The position numbers and the translations under genes are program-made. From Sulfurimonas sp. HSL1-2 (lineage in GTDB: Bacteria; Campylobacterota; Campylobacteria; Campylobacterales; Sulfurimonadaceae), in NCBI RefSeq assembly GCF_039645565.1, contig NZ_CP147914.1, forward strand, positions 496,001 to 560,000: a DNA stretch of 64,000 bases, given 5' to 3'. Below, piece after piece: positions 1,029 through 20,399 of this stretch (position 1 is its first letter; every line of letters starts with the position of its first letter). The notes beneath the pieces were generated by a model. That model was not told where the DNA came from and searched no databases. It worked only from the letters and a program-made list of their open reading frames with translations.

Positions 1029-3476
1029 TTGCAATACAACCCGTCCGAAATCGAAACCAAGTGGCAGGCGTTCTGGGATGCCGAGCGCAGCTTTGAACCC
1101 TCCGATGATCTCACGAAGCCGAAAAAGTATGTCCTGAGCATGTTCCCCTACCCGTCGGGGCGTATCCACATGGGCCACGTGCGCAACTACACCATCGGCG
1201 ACGCCTTCGCGCGCTACTACCGCCAGCAGGGCCTGAACGTCCTGCACCCCATCGGATGGGACAGCTTCGGGATGCCGGCGGAGAACGCGGCGATCAAGCA
1301 CGGGGTGCACCCGAAAAAGTGGACCTACGAGAACATCGACTACATGCGCAAAGAGCTCGCCACCCTGGGGCTCTCCTTCTCCAAGGAGCGCGAGTTCGCC
1401 ACTTCCGACCCGCTCTATACGAAGTTCGAGCAGGGCTTCATCATCGACCTCTTCGAGAAGGGGCTGCTCTACCGCAAGAAAGCCTTCCTCAACTGGTGTC
1501 CGCACGACCTCACGGTCCTGGCCAACGAGCAGGTCGTCGACGGCTGCTGCTGGCGCTGCGACACCCCCATCGTCAAGAAAGAGATGCACCAGTACTACCT
1601 GCGCATCACCGACTACGCCGACGAGCTGATCGACGACCTTAAACAGCTGGAAAAGGGGTGGCCGAAGCAGGTCCTCTCCATGCAGGAGAACTGGATCGGC
1701 CGCAGCAGCGGGCTCGAGTTCACCCTGCACCTCGAGGAGCACTCCAAGAAACTGCTGCGCGACCGGTTCAACGGATTCGACGTCTACACGACGCGCCCGG
1801 ACACGATCTACGGCGTCAGCTACACGGCCCTCGCGCCGGAGCATGAACTGGTCACCTACATGATCGAGAACGGCCTGCTCGACCCGGAAGTCGCCGCCGC
1901 GATCACGGTCATGAAGAACAGCAGCTCCATCGACCGCCAGAAAGAGAAGCACGGTGTCGCGCTGGGCATCAATGTCGTCCACCCGCTCACGGGAGCGATG
2001 GTGCCGGTCTGGGTCGCGAACTTCGTCCTGATGGATTACGGCTCCGGCGCGGTCATGGCCGTCCCGGCGCACGACGAGCGCGACTACGACTTCGCGACGA
2101 AGTACGGCCTGCCGGTCACGCCGGTCATCGCCCACCCCGACGAGGGGGTCGTCGAAGGCAAGGCGATGACGGAACCGGGCATGCTCTTCAACTCCGGCGA
2201 CTTCAGCGAGATGATGAGCGACGCGGCGAAAGAGGCGATCATCGCCCGTTTCGAAAACGACGGCATCGGCAAGCGCGTGACGAACTACCGCCTCAAGGAC
2301 TGGGGCATCAGCCGCCAGCGCTACTGGGGCGCCCCGATCCCGCTCATCCACTGCCCGGCCTGCGGGATCGTCCCGGAGAAAAAAGAGAACCTGCCGGTCG
2401 AACTCCCCGACGACGTCGAGATCACCGGCGAGGGGAACCCTCTGGAGCACCACCCCACGTGGAAACAGTGCAGCTGTCCCAAATGCGGCGGCGCGGCCGA
2501 GCGCGAAACGGACACGATGGACACCTTTATCCAGTCGTCGTGGTACTTCCTGCGCTACACGGCGGGACGCGCTACCTGGGAAAAAGAGGCCTTCGACAAG
2601 GAGGAGCTCGCCTACTGGATGAACGTCGACCATTACATCGGCGGGATCGAGCACGCCATTTTGCACCTGCTCTACAGCCGCTTCTTCACCAAAGCGCTGC
2701 GCGACCTCGGCTACGTCGACGTCAAGGAGCCCTTCGAGCGGCTGCTGACCCAGGGGATGGTCCTCAAAGACGGCGCGAAGATGAGCAAGTCCAAGGGCAA
2801 CACCGTCGACCCTGATGCCCTGATCGAGAAGTACGGCGCCGACACGGCCCGCCTCTTCATCCTCTTCGCCGCACCGCCGACCCAGGAGCTGGAGTGGAAC
2901 GACAGCGCCGTCGAGGGGGCCTACCGCTTCCTGCGCCGTTTCCACGACCGCAGCGAAAAAGCTGCGGCGACGGATACCCTGCCGGCAATCGACCACGCCG
3001 CTCTCTCCAAAGAGGAGAAGGCCGCGCGCAAGAAGGTCTATGAAGCGCTGGTGCGCGCCAACGACGTCTTCGGCGAACGCTACACCTTCAACACGATGAT
3101 CGCCGGGGTCATGGAGGCGATGAACGCCCTGAACGAGCAGGAGAACGCAGCGGTCTGGACGGAAGCGTACTGGGTTCTCACCTCATTGATGGAGCCCATC
3201 GTGCCGCACGTCTGCTGGGAGATCAGCGACCGCCTTTTCGGCCGCAAAAACCTGGGCGCACAGGTCGTCAAAGAAGAGGTCTTCGCCCTCGATACGATCA
3301 CGCTCGGCGTCTCCGTCAACGGCAAGAACCGCGGCCAGATCGACGTGGCGCCGGATGCGTCCAAAGAGGCGATGATCGAAGCCGCCAAGGCGATCATCCC
3401 GCAGTGGCTCGAGGGCAAGACGGTCGTCAAAGAGATCGTCGTGCCGAACAAGCTCGTCAACATCGTCGTCAAGTAA
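1029..3476 (+). CDS. leuS: Leucyl-tRNA synthetase
   Basis: Charges tRNA-Leu with leucine in the cytoplasm. The 815-residue length is normal for bacterial LeuRS. The class I HIGH signature is seen in [15 protein letters not shown] (about residues 40-55) and KMSKS in [15 protein letters not shown] (about residue 583). The editing CP1 domain lies between them. CPACG (about 440) and CPKCGG (about 480) suggest a zinc knuckle in the insert. The start is a TTG at 1029, chosen because GAGGAG at 1018-1023 is ideally spaced and the protein begins with [15 protein letters not shown] as in the family. lptE follows 10 bases later, so leuS-lptE-folC look like one transcript. Confidence 0.97.
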
Positions 3477-3486
3477 GGAAGAGATC

Positions 3487-4005
3487 ATGGGTGGAATGCA
3501 GCGTTTCGGTTCGGTACTGGTCGCCGCGGCGCTGCTGGCGGGGTGCGGCTACAAGCCGACGAGCCGGGCCGTCAAGCCGGTGCTGCAGGAGAGCGTCAGC
3601 ACGAAGGTCGTCATCTCCATGCAGGACCCGGACAACACCGTCTACATCAAAGACGCCCTCGATCAGGCCGTCGTCAACCGTTTCCGCACCCGCCTGACCG
3701 ACGAGGCGCACGCCAGCACCCACCTGACCATCTCCCTGCGCAATGTCGTCTTCACACCGGTGCAGTACGACACCAACGGCTACATCGTCGCCTACCGCGC
3801 CATCGTCACCCTCGACGTCGACCGTCAGCGTGGGGAAGAGACGCGCCGTTACAATGCGCGGGGAAGCTACATTTTTACCATCGAACCCAACGCCATCATC
3901 TCCGACCTCGTCCGTTTCGAGGCGATCAAGTACGGCTCGGAGAAGGCGCTCGACAGCTTTGTCGCCCAGGTCGCGGGCGAGGGGGCCTCTGCTGAAGTAC
4001 GCTGA
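3487..4005 (+). CDS. lptE: LPS-assembly lipoprotein LptE-like
   Basis: A 172-residue exported lipoprotein with a hydrophobic leader and the lipobox LLAGC (Cys20). LptE plugs the LptD barrel in the outer membrane and helps insert LPS. The mature part is a small alpha/beta domain (STKVVISMQDPDNTVYIKDA, then DQAVVNRFRTRLTDE), in keeping with LptE proteins of this phylum, which share little sequence. Its place between leuS and folC is the usual one for lptE in Campylobacterota and is the strongest support. The last codons overlap the likely folC start. The family call is good but rests partly on context. Confidence 0.72.
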   Translation: MGGMQRFGSVLVAAALLAGCGYKPTSRAVKPVLQESVSTKVVISMQDPDNTVYIKDALDQAVVNRFRTRLTDEAHASTHLTISLRNVVFTPVQYDTNGYIVAYRAIVTLDVDRQRGEETRRYNARGSYIFTIEPNAIISDLVRFEAIKYGSEKALDSFVAQVAGEGASAEVR

Positions 4006-10955: not shown

Positions 10956-11023
10956 AAGGAGGAGGATTATTGAATTTAGTAGACGATATGACATTGGTCA
11001 TAATCGCTTTGCCTAACGTTTAA
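10956..11023 (+). other. Strong ribosome binding site before a 17-codon open frame
   Basis: AAGGAGGAGG (10956-10965) lies four bases before a TTG (10970) that opens a 17-codon frame (MNLVDDMTLVIIALPNV) ending in TAA at 11021-11023. The site is stronger than those of most genes here. It may be the beheaded start of a plus-strand gene at the left edge of the accessory island, or a tiny gene. The rest of 10893-11085 is AT-rich with nothing else I can support. Confidence 0.3.
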
Positions 11024-11085
11024 AATGATCGATCAAAAAGACATCTGCGGTTTATTGATTAGTTTTATTTGATTTGTTAGAAATT

Positions 11086-12213
11086 TTACTGGCAGTGACA
11101 CCAAGAAGTACCCTTCTTTTTCGTCCATCCTGTTTTGTTTGTAGTAAAAGTAATATCTTGTTTGTTCGAATTTAAAGTGTTACATAAAGTACATATCTTC
11201 TTGCATGACAATTGTTTAAAAGTGATTCCTGGTCTAGTTTTATATTTTCCATCACTACGAACGAATATCGTTTTATCATGGATGAAGGTCCTTAAACGAG
11301 TATATGCCTTTTGATTATGTTCAGAGCCATGATGTGGTGCTGTAATTATTGAACTAGCTGAAAGGTTTGGTATATTTTGGTTAAATGAAAAATCAGAATC
11401 TGCGCTAAATAAGACACTGGTGGTTCCATAGTTGTCAGTGGAATAAAAAACTAAACTTTCTCTATTTGCTTTACTGACGTACAAATACATTAATGCATTT
11501 AGTGGTGGGGATATTCTGACAATCTCTTGTGAGTTGACTGGTCTGAGATAAATTTCTCCACCGTATGCAGCCTTGTCTTTATTAAACTCAAACCATCTAA
11601 TTTTGGCCCCTGCATTATAGGCAAGCACTGCAAGTTCTTTTATCTTCTTTGCGGTGTCAATTGCATCTATGAAAAGCTCATATTGAGTTAAACTTTTAAA
11701 GTGATAATGGAATCCAAACGGGTAGTAATTAGTTATGTCAAACAATTCTGTTCTGTGTGCAGCTTCTTCCATTGCTTGAAAAAGTTGATCAACATCTAAA
11801 CTTGATTTATCTGTCTGGTTAGGATGTTTTTTTTGCTCTAAAAAGTCTACATCCGTTAAATCTTCTAAATTATTTTTCTCAAAGGCACCAATTTCAGCTA
11901 TATCGTTACTTAGCTCTATGATAAAACCTAATGGATTTTTTATCAAATCTTCTAAACGACTAGTCCATACACCTGGTAACCAAACTTCTTTGGCTTTGAG
12001 TCCAGATTCAAAATAACCAAGTAAACCATTGATATGATCTGCATCTGCATGTGTACAAACAACAACATCTAATTCATCAGTAACAATGGTTCGTGAAAAC
12101 TGTATTGGGAATCCTGTCCTTGCTCTTCCACCATCAACGAGAATTTTTACTCCAGACCTTTCTAAATAAAAAGCATCTCCTTGATTTACACCGATAGAAA
12201 TGAATTTGTCCAA
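11086..12213 (-). CDS. MBL-fold hydrolase, ComEC/Rec2-like, fourth gene of the defence operon
   Basis: A 375-residue cytoplasmic metallo-beta-lactamase-fold protein. The start resembles the soluble domain of ComEC: FISIGVNQGDAFYLE and ILVDGG. The metal-binding signature CTHADADHINGLLGYFE (HxHxDH type) lies at about 54-70, a metal-site acidic stretch FSADSDF near 275, and APHHGSEH near 290. The C-terminal tail has Cys pairs (CKKICTLC and SWCHCQ) that could bind zinc. It may be a nuclease or phosphodiesterase; the substrate is unknown. The only reasonable start is TTG at 12213. It follows the SIR2 gene by 81 bases on the same strand, shares its AT-rich composition, and is probably part of the same locus. 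Confidence 0.72.
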   Translation of the reverse strand: MDKFISIGVNQGDAFYLERSGVKILVDGGRARTGFPIQFSRTIVTDELDVVVCTHADADHINGLLGYFESGLKAKEVWLPGVWTSRLEDLIKNPLGFIIELSNDIAEIGAFEKNNLEDLTDVDFLEQKKHPNQTDKSSLDVDQLFQAMEEAAHRTELFDITNYYPFGFHYHFKSLTQYELFIDAIDTAKKIKELAVLAYNAGAKIRWFEFNKDKAAYGGEIYLRPVNSQEIVRISPPLNALMYLYVSKANRESLVFYSTDNYGTTSVLFSADSDFSFNQNIPNLSASSIITAPHHGSEHNQKAYTRLRTFIHDKTIFVRSDGKYKTRPGITFKQLSCKKICTLCNTLNSNKQDITFTTNKTGWTKKKGTSWCHCQ

Positions 12214-12253
12214 AATGAGTTACCCTGTATTTTTACGATTGAAATAAGCAATC

Positions 12254-12273
12254 AAAAACTGATCGTAGTTTTT
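12254..12273. terminator. AT-rich hairpin between the SIR2 and MBL genes
   Basis: AAAAACT (12254-12260) pairs with AGTTTTT (12267-12273) around a six-base loop, in the 81-base gap between the third and fourth operon genes. It may attenuate transcription into the MBL gene. The stem is weak and AT-rich. Confidence 0.3.
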
Positions 12274-12294
12274 TTAGTCTGCTTAATTTGCTAG

Positions 12295-13089
12295 CTATTG
12301 ACTAGTAAGCTTCGTCATAAATTCGATTAAGGCGGCACCAGGATCATCTATTTCTGATGAGATCATTGTAATTCCCCATTGTTTTAATATGTCTTCCTGA
12401 ATAGGATTTGGTTTAGAGGAAAAAACATATGATGTTGGTTGCACCCTGCCTTGGGCATTCTCTTTCCATAATTGAGAAAGCTTGAAGAATAATAATCGAA
12501 TATTTATATCTGACAGCCCATATCCAATGAATAAGACAGTTTTCCCAAGTACGTCTGACCTTAGCTTTATATCTAGAGGTGTTTCAAAATCCAAACGTTT
12601 GAAATAACTTGTTTCATCCAAAACTATTGAATTATCATCATCAAAATCACCATGAAACTTTACAATTTGAGTTGTTTGATCATTTGTTGTTGTTAGGTCA
12701 CTAACACCAATTATTTTGTGATAAGGCTTGCCATATTTTTCAAATGCATTTTCTAGCCATCTATCGTAATTTGTTGTATAAATCAGTGGAAAATTAGCAT
12801 TTACAATAATTTTGTGAATATCTGAATCTTCAATTTTTATAGCATCTGAGTGCCAATTCCTATCCATCCAACTTCTAAGTTTTCCCAAGCCACCTTGTTT
12901 GATTGTATAGTATTCGGCTAACGCATAATTGTCACCAAAAGTTGAATATATTTCGGGGTCATAATCCAATTGTTTAGCAATTTCGTTGATCAAGTCACCC
13001 CATGAAGGTAAGCCTAAGCCCATGGAAACACCAGCACCAACAAAGAGAATGATATTGTTTTGTTTGTATGCTTCGAATAATTGTTCCAT
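12295..13089 (-). CDS. SIR2-domain NADase effector, Kongming KomC-like
   Basis: A 264-residue single-domain SIR2 protein. The NAD-binding start is [20 protein letters not shown] (residues 14-33). [13 protein letters not shown] (about 103-115) and the catalytic-His region [11 protein letters not shown] (about 144) follow, then [17 protein letters not shown]. Defence SIR2 proteins consume NAD+ to stop phage growth. There is no second domain, so sensing must come from a partner. It starts two bases after the HAM1-like gene ends, which implies tight co-expression. In the Kongming antiphage system, a SIR2 protein pairs with a HAM1-like protein and is switched on by dITP. Assignment to that role is inferred from gene order and families. 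Confidence 0.85.
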
Positions 13090-13091
13090 GG

Positions 13092-13637
13092 TTAGTTGCC
13101 TTCCTTCAGGTACTTATTGAATTTGTCAAACGCTATTTTTCTCATAGAAATCTCATTCTTTTTATCGCCTAGTTCTGCAAAAGTCTGTTCTTCACCATCA
13201 GGTATAAAAACGCAATCCCATTGGAAGCGTCTTTCTCCTTTTGGCTCAGGAGAGATATTACCAATTATTTCACCATCAAAATAATGTATCTTTTTACCGT
13301 CGCAATAGCCTATGGTTGTTCTAGCAATAGCAGTTGTAGTATCTAAAGTTCCTAATAATTTTGAAAACCTATCAGCTTCTAATTTATCCCAGAAAATTTG
13401 CGTCAGTCCTCCAGGAAAACTATTTAAGCTGTCGAGATAAAGTCCTGTGTGTTCAACAAATACAGGTCTTCCCACCTTTTTAAATGCTTTTAGTAGTTTG
13501 TCTTTAACAAGTTTTTTCACATTATCAGTTTGTATTTCCTCAATTTTCAATTCTGTTGCAACTATTTCTGCTGCATCTATCATTTTTTTAACTTCTGCAA
13601 GTTTATTCAGGTTATTAGTGACAAATCTGATTTTCAT
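13092..13637 (-). CDS. HAM1/RdgB-like (non-canonical purine NTP pyrophosphatase fold) protein, Kongming KomB-like
   Basis: A 181-residue member of the ITPase/HAM1 fold: [15 protein letters not shown] at the N-terminus is the substrate P-loop-like motif, and a Gly-rich stretch [11 protein letters not shown] follows. Housekeeping members carry DDSGL or EDTxL. Here the stretch reads [11 protein letters not shown], so the acid after the first acid is His. The C-terminal SHR base-recognition motif reads SMR. Both changes suggest weak or absent hydrolysis and a sensing role, as proposed for KomB, which binds dITP and activates the SIR2 partner. Its ATG overlaps the deaminase TAA by one base. Confidence 0.83.
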
Positions 13638-14611
13638 TAAAGTCCTTTGATGAATGAATACTTCTTCTGAGTAGCCAACATTTTTTCTAATATGTCTTTT
13701 CGCATTGTTTCATCATGAAAGGACATATAATCATCATTGATAGTTTTGTTATGTAGTGCAGGGTTGTCAGAACATAGCACGAATGGAACATCGTTTTCGA
13801 GGAATTTGACAACTGGGTGATCATCTTCTTCTCTGACAGCACCAGTTAAACGGTTACTAATTGGGCATACTTCAATACAAACATCTCTTTCTTTTATATA
13901 TGCCATTAATTCTTGGTCTTTTTCTGCGGCTGTACCATGACCGATTCGGTCAGCCGTAAACGAATCTATAGCTTCAATAATATTGGCTACATTGCCAGTT
14001 TCTCCAGCATGTACCGTAATGTTGAAACCATATTTTTCTTTTGCATTTCTAAATAAACTACTAATATTCTTTGAAATTACAATATCCTCATTACCAGCAA
14101 GATCTAGCCCTAAGACTCCATTGGGCTTATCAAGCTTTTCATACGCCTTTATGAGTGTATGAAAGTTCTCTGCTGAATAATCACCTCTGGATATTGTCAT
14201 CAATAACCCTGCCTTTATATTGTATTTTTCAGAAGCCTGTTCGATTTCTTCTAAAAGCCACCGAAGGGCTAGTTCTGTACTGATGTTATTTAGAAATGAT
14301 AAGTAGACTACACTGTTTCTAATTTCAACAAATGAGACATTTTGCTGTTTCAGATTTTCGAATGCATTTTGAACCATGAGTTTTAGACTTTCCTTACTAT
14401 TAGGGATGAGTCTTAGTACGTCCCATGGTTTAAGATACTGTTCTAGACTTTCCATAGGAAATTCTCGTATTAAATCTCTGTGAATGTTGAAGTCCTGAGG
14501 GACTTCTATTGATTCTTCAATGATAATCTTCTGAATAGTAGATGTTGATACTAATCCATTTAAATGGACATGTAACTCACCCTTTTCAAGATTCGAAATA
14601 TAGTTTTGCAT
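13637..14611 (-). CDS. Adenosine deaminase family protein, Kongming KomA-like
   Basis: A 324-residue metal-dependent deaminase of the ADA family. Visible zinc and catalytic motifs are HVHLNG (residues 14-19), TVHAGETGN (about 201), RIGHGT (about 224), CPISNRLTG and [10 protein letters not shown], so the active site appears intact. In Kongming the first gene is such a deaminase, which turns dAMP into dIMP; phage kinases then raise it to the dITP signal. A housekeeping purine-salvage role is less likely, given the operon with SIR2 and HAM1-like genes and the AT-rich composition. It is the first gene of the operon, with GGAATTAA before the ATG. Confidence 0.88.
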
Positions 14612-14624
14612 TTAATTCCAATAG

Positions 14625-14662
14625 ATATAGCTTCTATATTATTAGTGAACATTCTATGTAAA
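14625..14662 (-). promoter_or_regulatory. Probable promoter and small inverted repeat of the defence operon
   Basis: On the minus strand, TTTACA (14662-14657) and TAATAT (14641-14636) are 15 bases apart, ahead of the deaminase ATG at 14611. The inverted repeat ATATAG-CTT-CTATAT (14625-14639) overlaps the -10 and might bind a repressor. No regulator gene is in the operon. Weak by sequence alone. Confidence 0.35.
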
Positions 14663-14749
14663 ACAACCTTTGATCATCAAAACAGTTAACATAGATTGAG
14701 TGTTGCTATGCAATATCTTCACTAGGAACGGCTTTAACCCGCAAAGCGA

Positions 14750-14855
14750 TACAATGCCGATTATGAAAAATCTCACAGTAGCAATGATCGACGACATTGT
14801 CGGGCGGCCGGGACGGTCGATGATCAGGCAGCACCTGCCGCGGCTCAAGAAATAG
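14750..14855 (+). pseudogene. ymdB 5' fragment, copy A (promoter plus 30 codons, then stop)
   Basis: A -10-like TACAAT (14750-14755), seven bases, then ATG at 14763 and 30 codons that match the start of the intact ymdB at 20429, including VGRPGR and QHLPRL. It ends in TAG right after the homologous part. At base level it is diverged from the intact copy (for example GDD-to-DDI changes), so it is not a recent exact duplication. It lies between the defence operon and the lipoprotein gene. Confidence 0.85.
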
Positions 14856-14871
14856 CGGTATCTCAAGCCGG

Positions 14872-15372
14872 TTACTGCTCCGGCATTATCCTCTCGTTCG
14901 CGTCGACCTGCTTCGTCTTTAGCTGCGCGGCACGCTCCTTGTCCACCTCAAAAAGCTTGTAACGGATATCCGGCCCCGGAATGGGGATGAATCCGTAGGG
15001 AACAAAGGTGACCCCTTCAAATACGGGGTAGGTCTCAAAGAAATTCGAACCGTTCACTTCTGCCGTGAAAGCAAGGCTTTCCAGGTGCGTGAAATAGGGG
15101 GAGGATGAATCGGAAACGCCGAGCTCGTGCGTTCCCGGCGGGATGGGAAAGGTAATGCGCTCGCCGCCGTGCAGATAAAAGGCATAGGCACCGTCCACCA
15201 TGATGCCGACACTATGCACCGAGAGGATGAGGTTCGATGACTTTGGGTAGCAAATAGTCACTGTAGCGACATCGCCTTTTCCGGCCAGCAGACGCTTGGC
15301 CATCGGCGACAGCGTTGGACTGCACCCTTGCAACAACAGAAGCGATATCACGGCGGCAATCACTGTTTTCAT
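14872..15372 (-). CDS. Small lipoprotein of unknown function
   Basis: A 166-residue exported lipoprotein: hydrophobic leader with lipobox LLQGC (Cys17). The mature part reads VATVTICYPKSSNLI, then VGIMVDGAYAFYLHGGERI and FPIPPGTHELGVSDS. This pattern of a named property, a set value and a PEGA/DUF2846-like beta-sandwich resembles DUF2846 lipoproteins, but I am not certain. It is cargo of the first ymdB-bounded module and ends only 16 bases from the ymdB fragment. It is on the same strand as the RDD-ankyrin gene, 31 bases after it, so the two are likely co-transcribed. Confidence 0.65.
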   Translation of the reverse strand: MKTVIAAVISLLLLQGCSPTLSPMAKRLLAGKGDVATVTICYPKSSNLILSVHSVGIMVDGAYAFYLHGGERITFPIPPGTHELGVSDSSSPYFTHLESLAFTAEVNGSNFFETYPVFEGVTFVPYGFIPIPGPDIRYKLFEVDKERAAQLKTKQVDANERIMPEQ

Positions 15373-15403: not shown

Positions 15404-17137
15404 TCACGGGTATTTAGCGATCAGTTCCTGCATACGCTCAAGGTTTTTCCCCTTGCAAGACGCTTGTATGCGGGTCAATGTGTCTCCGCCGAATTTGTCT
15501 TTGAGAGCAGGGTCGGCTCCATTGGACAGAAGTAATTCGACAAGTGCAAAGTTCCTACATTTCTTGGCGGCAATTGTCAGTGCCGTTGGGCCTCTAAGAT
15601 ATTGATAATTCACATCGTAACCGTGTTCCAGAAACATTTTGATGATCGGAATAGATCGGTCTCCATCGGTGACCGCGACATCAAAGGGAGTCATCCTGTG
15701 CAAATCCGCGTACATGTCTGCACCGTTGAGTAGTAGTTTTTTTACACTCTGTTCTTTGCGCAGTCGGACGGCATAAAACAGCGGTGTAAAGCTGTTGCCG
15801 TTGCGTACCTCAAGAATGGAACGGTCGCGAAGCAGTTCATCCAATACCTTTTCTTGATCGTTGGCAATGACGTAAAAAATGGAAGGTCCTCGTTTGAGAG
15901 AACGATCGTAGCGCAAGCGTGCCAACATCTTTTTGCGGGCTTCTTTTTTTCTGATAAGACGTTCTTCGTCATCTAGTTTAGCCTCCAGCGCTTTTTGTTC
16001 TTGCAGCAGTATCAGCTCCGGATGGTGTTCCTTGAAGGTTTCATACCATTGCTCATCTTCGTCTTCGAGAAAGAGCTGATGTTCGAATGATTCGAAATAT
16101 TTTTTGGCAAAGCTGTCATAGAGGATTTCAACATTGACGCTGTCATCGCACGGGCTATGGAGGCTCCGCGCTGAAAGTCCCGTAATATCTCTCTCGATCT
16201 CGTTGATCAAGTTCGTGTCGACGACATAAAAGCGGCTGCTTGAGTACGCTTCCTGCTCCTGGGCGAGATCAATTTTATCATTCGCGACATAGGCGTTTCG
16301 CGCATTTTTGTAGAAGGAGCGGCCTTCACCGGTACTTTCCGGATCGTGCAGTTTTTGGAGACGGTCGATACAGTTCTGGGCGAGTTCCGATTTGATGTCA
16401 TTGGCAAAAATGTCATATTCGTCTTCGGCATCGATGTAGCGCGGGACATAGACGTTCAGCGCATCGGCATAGAAGCGGATACGAGCATCGCCATAGTCGT
16501 TTGTGGGATAGGTCCGTTGGTATGATTGATCGTATAGCGCCTGTGCTTGTTGAGCCGCTCGCCACATGACGCTGGCAAAGAGCATGTAGTAGCCTGTGAT
16601 GATCAGTAAGCCCAGGATGGCGACAGTGCGCAAAAACATTCTGAAAATGCGTAGCGGCGGAGCACTGCTCTCAATCGTATCGAGGACGACAGTAAGGGCG
16701 ATCCGGTCATGCAAGGACCGTTTGTCCCGATCCAGAAATATCAGCAGTACCGGCAGGAGCGAGAGGCCAAGAAACAGGAGGATTGACGGGTTGCCGTGCG
16801 TAAGCTCGGAGACTTTGAGTGCAGCGGACACGTAAAGGAAATATCCCAGTACGATTGTTTCACGAATGGCCAATGTTCGAAAAGTCAGTGGCTCGGAATT
16901 ATCCCTCTCCAGGGTCAGGCCGAATAGTTTTTTCCCAAGGGTGCCCCGCAGGGGCGAAAGCGGGAGAAATACGCGGTAAAGCCAAGAGAAACCTATGAGG
17001 GCGTAGGGAAAGAGTGATACATACGACTTCGGCAGAAGTGGCAGAAAGAGTACGATGACCAGGCTTACCAGAAAGATGTCGGAGAGGAATGCGACAATTC
17101 TCGTGAGTGCGGTTGTAATAGAAATATTTTTAAACAT
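15404..17137 (-). CDS. RDD-family membrane protein with C-terminal ankyrin repeats
   Basis: 577 residues. The N-terminal 140 residues form an RDD domain: RIVAFLSDIFLVSLVIVLFL, then GTLGKKLFGLTLERDN and TLAIRETIVLGYFLYVSAAL, with four or five helices including one near 165-190. A charged, partly coiled-coil middle (about 200-420) carries LDDEERLIRKKEARKKMLAR. The end holds three ankyrin-like repeats: TPLFYAVRLRKEQSVKKLLL, TPFDVAV...MFLEHGYDVN and TALTIAA...LLLSNGADP. The joining of RDD and ankyrin parts is unusual. Its function is unknown; an envelope toxin-immunity or stress role would be a guess. It is the larger cargo gene of module A-B. Confidence 0.75.
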   Translation of the reverse strand: MFKNISITTALTRIVAFLSDIFLVSLVIVLFLPLLPKSYVSLFPYALIGFSWLYRVFLPLSPLRGTLGKKLFGLTLERDNSEPLTFRTLAIRETIVLGYFLYVSAALKVSELTHGNPSILLFLGLSLLPVLLIFLDRDKRSLHDRIALTVVLDTIESSAPPLRIFRMFLRTVAILGLLIITGYYMLFASVMWRAAQQAQALYDQSYQRTYPTNDYGDARIRFYADALNVYVPRYIDAEDEYDIFANDIKSELAQNCIDRLQKLHDPESTGEGRSFYKNARNAYVANDKIDLAQEQEAYSSSRFYVVDTNLINEIERDITGLSARSLHSPCDDSVNVEILYDSFAKKYFESFEHQLFLEDEDEQWYETFKEHHPELILLQEQKALEAKLDDEERLIRKKEARKKMLARLRYDRSLKRGPSIFYVIANDQEKVLDELLRDRSILEVRNGNSFTPLFYAVRLRKEQSVKKLLLNGADMYADLHRMTPFDVAVTDGDRSIPIIKMFLEHGYDVNYQYLRGPTALTIAAKKCRNFALVELLLSNGADPALKDKFGGDTLTRIQASCKGKNLERMQELIAKYP

Positions 17138-17255
17138 AAAAAAATTATATTGTTTTTATCATAAAAAACATTTATCGAATCTTTTGAAATCAGGGAATCG
17201 CGCAGGCGTATCCTGCAGGGAAAGCCAAACAACAGTTTTTTCAGTCCGATACAGC

Positions 17256-17358
17256 TACATTGCTACCCATGAATAGGTTGAAAGTAGCAATGATCGGTGA
17301 CGTCGTCGGGCGGCCGGGGCGGTTGATGATAAAACAGCACCTGCCGCGGCTACTGTAA
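17256..17358 (+). pseudogene. ymdB 5' fragment, copy B (promoter plus 29 codons, then stop)
   Basis: A -10-like TACATT (17256-17261), seven bases, ATG at 17269, then 29 codons matching the ymdB start (VAMIGDVVGRPGR and QHLPRL) and TAA at 17356-17358. The spacing from TACATT to ATG equals that in copy A and in the intact gene. It differs from both other copies at several bases. It separates the RDD-ankyrin module from the WD40-like module. Confidence 0.85.
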
Positions 17359-17393
17359 AGATCGCATATGCTTCAGTATGGTTGCGGTAGCAG

Positions 17394-20243
17394 CTATTTT
17401 GCCTCCAGCTGCCACAACGCAATCTCCCTGCCGATCGTGGCAATATGATTTTCGTCTATGAAGATGGCGCCTCTGATGTCCCCGCCGGTGAGAACCTCAT
17501 ACTGGACCTTGCTGCCCAGTTTCCATAGAAATACGCCAGATTGGCTTGACGCCATAAGATACCTGTGGTCTTTGCTCATTTCGAGGTGCTTGCACTGCAT
17601 ATAAAAATCGGCGTCAAGGGTCTCGACGATCGATTTTTTGTTCACATCCCAAAAACGGATGTTTTGCCCGTTGCAGACCATCAAATGATCAGAGTTCCTC
17701 GGATCGTGGGCGATGGCACCGATATCGCGGACCTGTTTGTCTTCGATGGTGTCCGAGTAGGTGAATTTCATATTTCCCGTACCACTTCCCTTTTTCTGCC
17801 AACGCTCCACATGCCCGTTGCTGCTGCCGATGTAAATCGTCGTACCATCCGGCGATTCCCCGACAGCGCTGATCCTCGGCGTAAAATATTTCTTCTCTTT
17901 TTCAATGAATTTCGGAGTCATCTCTATGATATTTTCATTCTCCGTATTGAAAAAATAGATGCTTTTGCCTGCCCCGGCCACCAGGGTTTTATTGTCTGAC
18001 AAAAAATGCATGAGGTTCTTGGCACCTTTGGGCAGACCGTCAAGTGTTTTCCGAAGTTTGTTTCCCTGAATATCCCAAAGGTATATTTTGTCCCTGCTCC
18101 CAACCGCCAGCGTTTTGCCGTCGGGTGACATCACGGGTTGGAAACTGTAAGCCATGTCCCGGGGGAGGGCTTTGGGAGGAAGCTTCCGTTCTTTGTCAAA
18201 TATTCTGGCGTCCTGACCGCTGACAAAAAAACTGCTGCCTCTATCGGAGTGTGCGAAACCGTATGGAGCATGGCGTGTCTCCATGATCACGTCGGTTTTT
18301 TGGGCCACGTCAAAAGCGCTGGCAATGGGTTGGGGGCCGTATTGGTACTCTTTGGTCGTCCGTTCTTTGACAAACGAAACGCTGTTTTCCTCCTGTTCGC
18401 CGCACAGGCGCTCTACATGCTTGCCGACCATATGGTTGATCCGGAGCTTGTGGTTGTTGAGGAGGATGTAGTCGATGCCTTGATACCTTTTCCTGTCAAA
18501 ATGGATGGCGTCATTCTTGTTCATAGTCACAAAACCGCTGCAGAGGTTTCCGCCGGGAACGCCTTCGTATGTCAGCTTCATGCCGCCCTGGGGCATCCCC
18601 TCGATACGGACGCTGCTGCCGAAAGCCGGAATGATCTTGTTCTCCTTATCGATCCATTTGCTGTCGATAATCCCGGCTTCAACGGCTTTACTGTTGGTCA
18701 GGTCGTGAGTAGGTCTGTTTTCAAAGACCTTGGCGTAATACTTGAGGATGCTGTCTTTCTGACTGATCCCGGCTCCCATGGCAGCTCTTGTGAAACCGGG
18801 CTTTTGTGCCGCCGTCTTCCGGACCGTCGTGGCGGCTTTGGGTTGTAAAAGCGCCGTCTGGTTGCAGTCGAAGAAGTGCTTGAGTTCTTCACTCTCTCCC
18901 TCCTGCTTCATCTTCATACCGATGGTTGTCGCCCACCAGAACATCGGCTGTACCACATAGGTGCCGAACGCCTCTTTGAGCCCCTCCTGTTCGATGTCAG
19001 TTTTCAGCAACTGAAGAAAAGGCGTTTCGTCTTTGATGCAGTCTTGCAGGCGGAGTACCTTCAGGCCCGTGCCGATATCGCCGTTCTGCTTCCCTATCGC
19101 CGCTCTGATCTCGTTGAGGTACGCCTGCATCTTCGTCTTGGTTCCGGGGGCTCTGCCGTAGCTGTTGATGTACGCCTGGGATGTGGCGAATACGGGCATC
19201 TTGTTATGTTTGGGCGCCGGTTTTTCAATAGCGACGTCGACGGGAGCAAGCGTCATCGCCGTGATATTGTTCTCACAGTATGCGCTGATCTCGTTGGGCA
19301 GAAAGTCGGTTTTCAGTGGGTAATAGTTTGAATAGGAAGTAATTGAAGATACCAGCTTTCGCTTTTCGTTCAGTCTGTCACCGCTCTTTTGATACAGATC
19401 CAGCCGCCGCTGGCACTGTTCGAGATAGACGATCTCCTGCTGCATCGCGTGCCGCTTTTTGGGACGGTCGTAATTGCGGAGTATCTCCTCTTTGAGATAG
19501 GCAAGTCTGAACAGCATCTCCTTGTTTTTGCGGGTAGTCTCCATATGGTCGATACTTTCATAAACATTACGCGGTATCGTATTTTCAGGCAGCTGCTTGA
19601 GCGATGTGAGGTCATAATCGCGTTTGTCGTCACCTTTCGGTTCGACGCTGTATACCGGCTTGTTCGCCAAAACACGGGCGCGGAGTTTGGCGTCATACTC
19701 GCGCATCCGTTTTGACGATTCCGATGACCCGTCCGTGCGGATGCGTCCCTCCACCCTGCGCAGTTTTTTCAGTGCTTTTTGTTCGCTTTCTGTCGGGGTG
19801 ATGATGGCTTCGAGGACATTGTCAAATGAATAATGGAGCTTGCAGGCACTCCCAATGTCGCTCACAATATGCCAAAGCCTCCAGTAGTCTAGATCGCTCT
19901 TTTCAAGATCTTCCATACTTTCGACATGCTGCATCCGGTATTTGAGTGCAAGTGTGTACGTATAGAGCATCGTCTTGTCGTCCTTGTTGAAGCAGTCGAA
20001 TGATTCTACGTATCGGGTCGCCTGATAGGGAAGCGTGTTGGCGAGATATAGTCCCAATGCGTTTGTAGTTTCTTTATGCGTTTTTTCTGCATGTTTTTCC
20101 GGCTTTGCCTCGGGTAGGGAATCCAGGCACTTCACCAGCGCCTGCTTCGAGATTTTTTCAGCGCGGTACGCCTCAAAGCATGTCTCGCGCTCCGCACTGT
20201 GGAGCAAAGCTGTCAGACAGAGTAATAGCAAAGTTTTTTTCAT
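17394..20243 (-). CDS. Large exported protein with a C-terminal WD40-like propeller
   Basis: About 949 residues starting at ATG 20243 (MKKTLLLLCLTALLHSAE), chosen because AGGAA precedes it and a signal peptide follows at once. The first 450 residues are charged and helical, without a family I know; several Cys (ETCFEAY, VKCLDSL, SACKLHY) suggest disulfides. From about 660 a beta-propeller is visible with SPDGKTLAVGSRDKIYLWDI, GESPDGTTIYIGSSNGHVER, CNGQNIRFWDVNKK and SGVFLWKLGSK. It is the only gene of module B-C, pointing away from ymdB. G+C is lower than in core genes. Function unknown. Confidence 0.75.
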   Translation of the reverse strand: MKKTLLLLCLTALLHSAERETCFEAYRAEKISKQALVKCLDSLPEAKPEKHAEKTHKETTNALGLYLANTLPYQATRYVESFDCFNKDDKTMLYTYTLALKYRMQHVESMEDLEKSDLDYWRLWHIVSDIGSACKLHYSFDNVLEAIITPTESEQKALKKLRRVEGRIRTDGSSESSKRMREYDAKLRARVLANKPVYSVEPKGDDKRDYDLTSLKQLPENTIPRNVYESIDHMETTRKNKEMLFRLAYLKEEILRNYDRPKKRHAMQQEIVYLEQCQRRLDLYQKSGDRLNEKRKLVSSITSYSNYYPLKTDFLPNEISAYCENNITAMTLAPVDVAIEKPAPKHNKMPVFATSQAYINSYGRAPGTKTKMQAYLNEIRAAIGKQNGDIGTGLKVLRLQDCIKDETPFLQLLKTDIEQEGLKEAFGTYVVQPMFWWATTIGMKMKQEGESEELKHFFDCNQTALLQPKAATTVRKTAAQKPGFTRAAMGAGISQKDSILKYYAKVFENRPTHDLTNSKAVEAGIIDSKWIDKENKIIPAFGSSVRIEGMPQGGMKLTYEGVPGGNLCSGFVTMNKNDAIHFDRKRYQGIDYILLNNHKLRINHMVGKHVERLCGEQEENSVSFVKERTTKEYQYGPQPIASAFDVAQKTDVIMETRHAPYGFAHSDRGSSFFVSGQDARIFDKERKLPPKALPRDMAYSFQPVMSPDGKTLAVGSRDKIYLWDIQGNKLRKTLDGLPKGAKNLMHFLSDNKTLVAGAGKSIYFFNTENENIIEMTPKFIEKEKKYFTPRISAVGESPDGTTIYIGSSNGHVERWQKKGSGTGNMKFTYSDTIEDKQVRDIGAIAHDPRNSDHLMVCNGQNIRFWDVNKKSIVETLDADFYMQCKHLEMSKDHRYLMASSQSGVFLWKLGSKVQYEVLTGGDIRGAIFIDENHIATIGREIALWQLEAK

Positions 20244-20399
20244 GATTGTTTCCTGGAATTTCATCGGTTGTCATATTGTAGATTAAATTTGGTTAAAAAA
20301 GATTTTTCAGTTTGCCGCGTGTCATGAACCCTTCTCCTTACATGGAAAAGCAGAAGCCCCTCTGTTACTTTCGTTTCCCAGCCGGCACTGCGCGTTCGG

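Follow-up and report, generated by a model that had tools for sequence, protein, structure and literature searches.

Kongming, the described system closest to the locus considered here, is published as KomABC: KomA, together with a phage kinase and the host NDK, gives rise to dITP, KomB binds dITP and KomC depletes NAD+ (PMC12948488; PMC12774641). The three genes are sufficient in E. coli, and one of these studies uses KomABC only (PMC12774641). Nucleases of the metallo-beta-lactamase (MBL) fold are known from gated nuclease-protease pairs, among them HamM, the Avs1 MBL, LmuA, the DRT MBL and CanC, which have been acquired by Hachiman, AVAST, Lamassu and DRT or are paired with a caspase (PMC12799240). 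The nuclease domain of ComEC, to which such proteins are likened, is a Mn2+-dependent DNase with an H-x-D-x-D-H motif, residues of this kind being required for activity (PMC12455585).

In the window (the whole stretch of 64,000 nucleotides that was analysed), a Kongming operon is followed on the same strand by a gene for an MBL-fold protein. The features are as follows, in window coordinates.

11086 to 12213, minus strand: MBL gene, an intact open reading frame of 375 codons (375 aa) with a TTG start and no internal stop.
12214 to 12294, minus strand: KomC-MBL gap of 81 bp, in which promoter-like and terminator-like sites were sought and neither was found.
12295 to 13089, minus strand: KomC, a SIR2-domain NADase of 264 aa (Pfam SIR2_2, 6.8e-26), with His146 kept.
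13092 to 13637, minus strand: KomB, a HAM1-like dITP-sensor protein of 181 aa that matches solved KomB (8zsg).
13637 to 14611, minus strand: KomA, an adenosine-deaminase-family protein of 324 aa (Pfam A_deaminase, 1.2e-53), with the Zn-site residues kept.
About 11021 to 14635, no strand: exchanged segment, outside which same-genus DNA is shared on both sides (edges alignment-based and approximate).
14651 to 14680, minus strand: promoter-like site TTGATG-18-TAGAAT, a consensus match with a -10 region preserved across four genomes of the same genus.

Judged by their sequences, the three genes upstream of the MBL gene are a true three-gene Kongming set, as the original prediction of a Kongming-like locus had it. 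The likeness covers gene order and the homology of all three genes, and KomB and KomC align nearly whole length with solved chains. KomC matches solved KomC (8zsf) over residues 1-259 with an E-value of 5.8e-115, and its His146, which the H146N KomC entry replaces, is invariant when homologues from Vibrio, Pantoea and Chelatococcus are aligned with it. KomB matches 8zsg over residues 1-180 (E 6.2e-80), its VEHTGLY sequence being identical. KomA, which lies next to KomB, is 52% identical to the homologue found beside KomBC on a Vibrio plasmid and retains the metal-ligand motifs HVH, HAGE, GHG and SDN. At the thresholds used, no other genome among 397 of the host phylum yielded a KomC, apart from one distant SIR2 match at 29% identity, and a search of 228 genomes of the host family did not find it either. 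KomB-KomC pairs without an adjacent KomA, 52-58% identical to the proteins here, are widespread on large Pantoea plasmids (L013, L014 and about 95 plasmid records). A second solved SIR2 and HAM1-like pair (278 and 181 aa; PDB 9v0g and relatives) has only a remote relationship to KomB and KomC and may be another HAM1-SIR2 system.

The fourth protein had been described from its sequence as ComEC-like, with HADADH, APHHGSEH and a Cys-rich tail, and this description is upheld by the family alignment, the predicted structure and the ComEC profile matches. The two motifs occupy residues 55-60 and 292-299 and contribute to a metal site made up of H55, D57, D59, H60, D272, H294 and H295; Ser297 is replaced by Ala in some relatives. 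The protein thus carries HxDxDH, a downstream Asp and PHHGS like the ComEC domain, with H-x-D-x-D-H in ComEC style rather than H-x-H-x-D-H. Its Pfam MBL match is sub-threshold (19.8 bits against a cut-off of 22.7), and the PADLOC and NCBIfam models for defence MBLs (Avs1a, LmuA and RT-associated MBL) match only the first 65-80 residues or so, far under family level; the Avs1a model NF041809, for example, reaches 43.8 bits against a cut-off of 420 and covers residues 10-71 only. By PDB profile it matches solved ComEC nuclease domains (9ic4, E 2.9e-11). An AlphaFold2 model built with 19 family sequences has a pLDDT of 79 and a pTM of 0.84, with confidence lowest within an acidic, poorly ordered insert at about residues 84-175 (pLDDT below 50 at 111-124, 127-137 and 164-174). 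VIA-align ranks 9ic4 first for this model (Z 22.0, 2.7 A, 236 residues aligned), followed by phosphorylcholine esterase (Z about 20) and by RNase Z/J types (about 16). We assign the MBL fold because family alignment, predicted structure and profile matches to ComEC agree, and the predicted overall fold is of the ComEC type. The protein differs from ComEC in that it is free-standing, without membrane or OB domain, and in the acidic insert and the CxxC...CxC tail (Cys341, 344, 372 and 374) that its family adds. Its predicted activity is that of a ComEC-type, probably Mn2+-dependent DNase.

It could be argued that the MBL protein limits Kongming toxicity by hydrolysing a nucleotide, be it dITP, dIMP or another, since some MBL-fold enzymes, such as Apyc1, degrade signalling nucleotides. 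However, Apyc1 is only a weak match here, motifs and fold are nearest the ComEC nuclease and not Apyc1 or nucleotidases, relatives occur in methylase/helicase systems without a known nucleotide signal, and E. coli, Vibrio and phage-borne Kongming manage without an MBL gene. Such an off switch, one of three roles that had been offered for the gene, has gained no positive evidence and we consider it very improbable.

The relatives of the MBL protein are one distinct, previously unnamed family, defined by a ComEC-type metal site, the acidic insert and a four-cysteine, zinc-ribbon-like tail. Twenty-five loci that carry them were compared, 19 of which were obtained by scanning 84,980 species genomes. 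All seven metal-site residues are kept in 22/22 sequences compared and the tail is complete in 19/22; the insert, present in all members compared, is variable in length (85-150 residues) and poorly conserved. The residues of the metal site, and with few exceptions those of the cysteine tail, are retained by relatives in different phyla, so the motifs are not due to chance. The nearest relatives are about 37-41% identical (Polyangiaceae about 41%, Kiloniellaceae about 39%), and the protein groups with them with 100/100 support in a tree that carries a long-branch warning. At the thresholds used, no other full-length homologue was found in 397 genomes of the host phylum. Six weak matches there proved to be other MBL families, two of them adjoining a protease gene. 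Phage genomes and a single-sequence search of viral contigs returned no relative; profile searches returned two viral contigs.

Members of the family are embedded within multigene defence operons in 11 records. Eight of these (L008, L009, L026, L029, L030, L032, L033 and L035, three being from Roseomonas mucosa) have the MBL gene flanked by a DUF1156 methylase and an SNF2/HKD helicase, and DUF499 is present wherever the contig extends far enough; one is a BREX operon with the MBL gene between PglX and PglZ, in which PADLOC models confirm BrxC, PglX, PglZ, BrxD and BrxHI, and two are operons of the order ResIII, methylase, MBL, UvrD. The DUF499/DUF1156 methylase/HKD helicase operons resemble type 2 BREX-related systems (PMC12839542), although these hosts are without Kongming genes, unlike the cassette described here. 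In the main text of that report neither "MBL" nor "lactamase" occurs, and it is possible that the Cys-tailed MBL is an undescribed component of BREX-related systems. Given these contexts, the most natural view of the MBL gene is that of a mobile accessory to defence loci, and the family provides a small, recognisable nuclease that recurs in BREX-type operons. The remaining relatives have varied neighbours, including HNH, KAP NTPase, Hsp70-like and phosphorothioation-associated methylase genes. Beside the two nearest relatives (L016 and L031) lie mostly unnamed proteins, a CcrM-like methylase-type open reading frame and a PknB-like kinase, with no common partner. In a Pseudomonas locus (L018:101-1453, minus strand, and 2196-3707, plus strand), the MBL gene directly follows an Hsp70-like gene and an unrelated SIR2 gene lies nearby. 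This SIR2 protein was rejected as a KomC, as it is 28% identical, 450 aa long and unaccompanied by KomA or KomB.

Is the MBL gene then a regular part of Kongming? Kongming loci were surveyed in E. coli, plasmids, phage and viral contigs and one phylum, and this locus is the only one in that survey to combine Kongming with the MBL gene. Among 5,426 E. coli genomes, 80 have a Kongming match, and in 72 one place covers at least 80% of a query made of KomABC and about 1.2 kb downstream. The MBL gene is absent from the E. coli Kongming loci, the Vibrio plasmid operon and five Kongming loci on viral contigs (temperate phage), whereas this cassette has it as a fourth gene. When every MBL of the family served as a tblastn query on 18 records of loci with Kongming or KomBC genes, some of them overlapping, no match was obtained, and KomA and KomB were found in 0/25 loci that carry MBL relatives. 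On this survey, the proposal of a fourth Kongming component in general is rejected; the family occurs mostly away from sets of deaminase, HAM1 and SIR2 genes, which counts against that proposal.

At this locus, by contrast with Kongming elsewhere, the four genes form one unit. Comparison of the selO-ymdB interval among four same-genus genomes (this window, L070, L071 and L072) delimits an unshared segment from about 65 bp beyond the MBL stop to about 25 bp ahead of the KomA start, which therefore encloses exactly KomA, KomB, KomC and the MBL gene. The GC content of the MBL gene is 34.5%, compared with 33.7-35.0% for the Kom genes and 61% for selO, and its synonymous codon usage lies at a distance of 0.16-0.21 from the Kom genes and 0.56 from selO; position 81 bases after the SIR2 gene, shared strand and shared composition are all as first proposed. 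Because the swapped segment is exactly KomABC plus MBL and codon usage matches, the MBL gene either arrived with the Kongming unit or was added to it. Neither KomC nor a full-length MBL homologue was found in the other genomes searched in the phylum, yet the two genes stand side by side here; the likeliest explanation is a single acquisition, or else that the MBL gene joined the unit before transfer. These observations support the conclusion that the MBL gene and KomABC are carried together in one exchanged cassette.

Perhaps the MBL hydrolase is simply carried along and leaves phage unaffected, as might be suspected from its occurrence with Kongming in one genome only and from its having no close homologue by which selection could be measured. 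However, its frame is intact and all metal ligands and tail cysteines are kept at about 37-41% identity to the nearest relatives, the family lies repeatedly within defence operons and the cassette boundaries enclose just these four genes, so that the passenger role, also among those first offered, is less likely; we deem it improbable.

The main rival is that the MBL protein acts independently, as a DNase that defends by itself, answers to a trigger of its own and happens to share a cassette and a transcript with KomABC without any mechanistic link to them. It is suggested by the many relatives that stand alone, about half being outside any recognised defence operon with neighbours different each time, and by the junction with KomC: the Kom genes abut or overlap one another, whereas the MBL gene is set off by the 81-bp gap and begins with TTG, and may be separately regulated. 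An RNA element or terminator in the gap was considered and rejected, the RNA fold being ordinary (z -0.92) and a terminator-like match absent. The exchange of exactly four genes and the 11 operon-embedded family members speak against independent action, and although possible, it strikes us as rather unlikely.

A more appealing scenario, to which we give a rough probability of just under one half (about 0.48), is that the MBL protein is a ComEC-type DNase that joined a complete Kongming operon as a modular accessory effector and moved with it as a four-gene cassette. This DNase-effector reading, the best supported of the three roles offered, draws on the ComEC-nearest fold, the ComEC-style motif, the metal site kept throughout the family, the relatives in defence operons, co-exchange and codon usage. 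KomA would make dIMP, dITP would bind KomB and KomC would destroy NAD+, while the MBL protein would most likely degrade DNA, giving a second or backup effector beside NAD+ depletion. Plausibly, the acidic insert would keep the enzyme inactive until infection. As for the opening of such a gate, a host protease, KomBC binding or DNA might each be imagined as a matter of pure inference. The gated MBL pairs are alike in that a ComEC-like MBL nuclease has been acquired repeatedly by unrelated defence systems and carries poorly ordered insertions in the MBL fold, but differ in that the MBL protein here has a distinctive Cys tail and matches the Avs1a and LmuA models with its N-terminal 65-80 residues only. 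A trypsin-like or caspase protease gene was sought in the four-gene cassette and none was found, so that the protein does not belong to a nuclease-protease pair; the same phylum does hold probable pairs, which served as controls (MBL and caspase in L004, MBL and trypsin in L006). Since the protease of the known gated nucleases is missing, another activation route would have to exist. Against a second effector stand this missing protease gene, the other Kongming loci without the MBL gene, the sufficiency of KomABC in E. coli, the looser gap with its TTG start and several stand-alone relatives. If the DNase-effector reading is true, Kongming, like Hachiman, AVAST and Lamassu, can gain a ComEC-type nuclease as an extra effector. 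It is tempting, though doubtful, to extend it to the whole family: these ComEC-type DNases with acidic insert and Cys tail would be an effector module that comes without a protease and is interchangeable among unrelated defence systems (BREX, BREX-related, methylase/UvrD and nucleotide-signalling NADase systems), which would here yield a dual-effector Kongming (NAD+ depletion and DNA degradation), possibly switched by the same dITP/KomBC state.

The cassette lies in an interval between selO and ymdB (window 10983-14880) that is an exchange slot for defence cassettes, as four genomes carry four different low-GC cassettes in one orientation. The other three consist of an AAA ATPase with an HNH protein (Septu-like), a ThsB-type TIR with a caspase and an unnamed protein, and a TIR/patatin/STAND set. 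The cassettes begin just after a conserved block with the promoter-like site at 14651-14680, which is kept although the cassettes downstream differ and is a candidate promoter for them. The slot is a natural unit here: four genes and one resident promoter-like site. On its right flank lie fragments resembling the 5' end of ymdB (window about 14720-14850), and on the left flank in relatives are fragments resembling the 3' end of mfd (L071, about 370-450), as if insertions had duplicated the ends of neighbouring genes. Further along, RDD-ankyrin and WD40-repeat genes at window 15404-20264 make up another block that looks accessory and has an intermediate GC content; two same-genus genomes have the RDD-ankyrin gene at this position, and a third (G288) lacks it.
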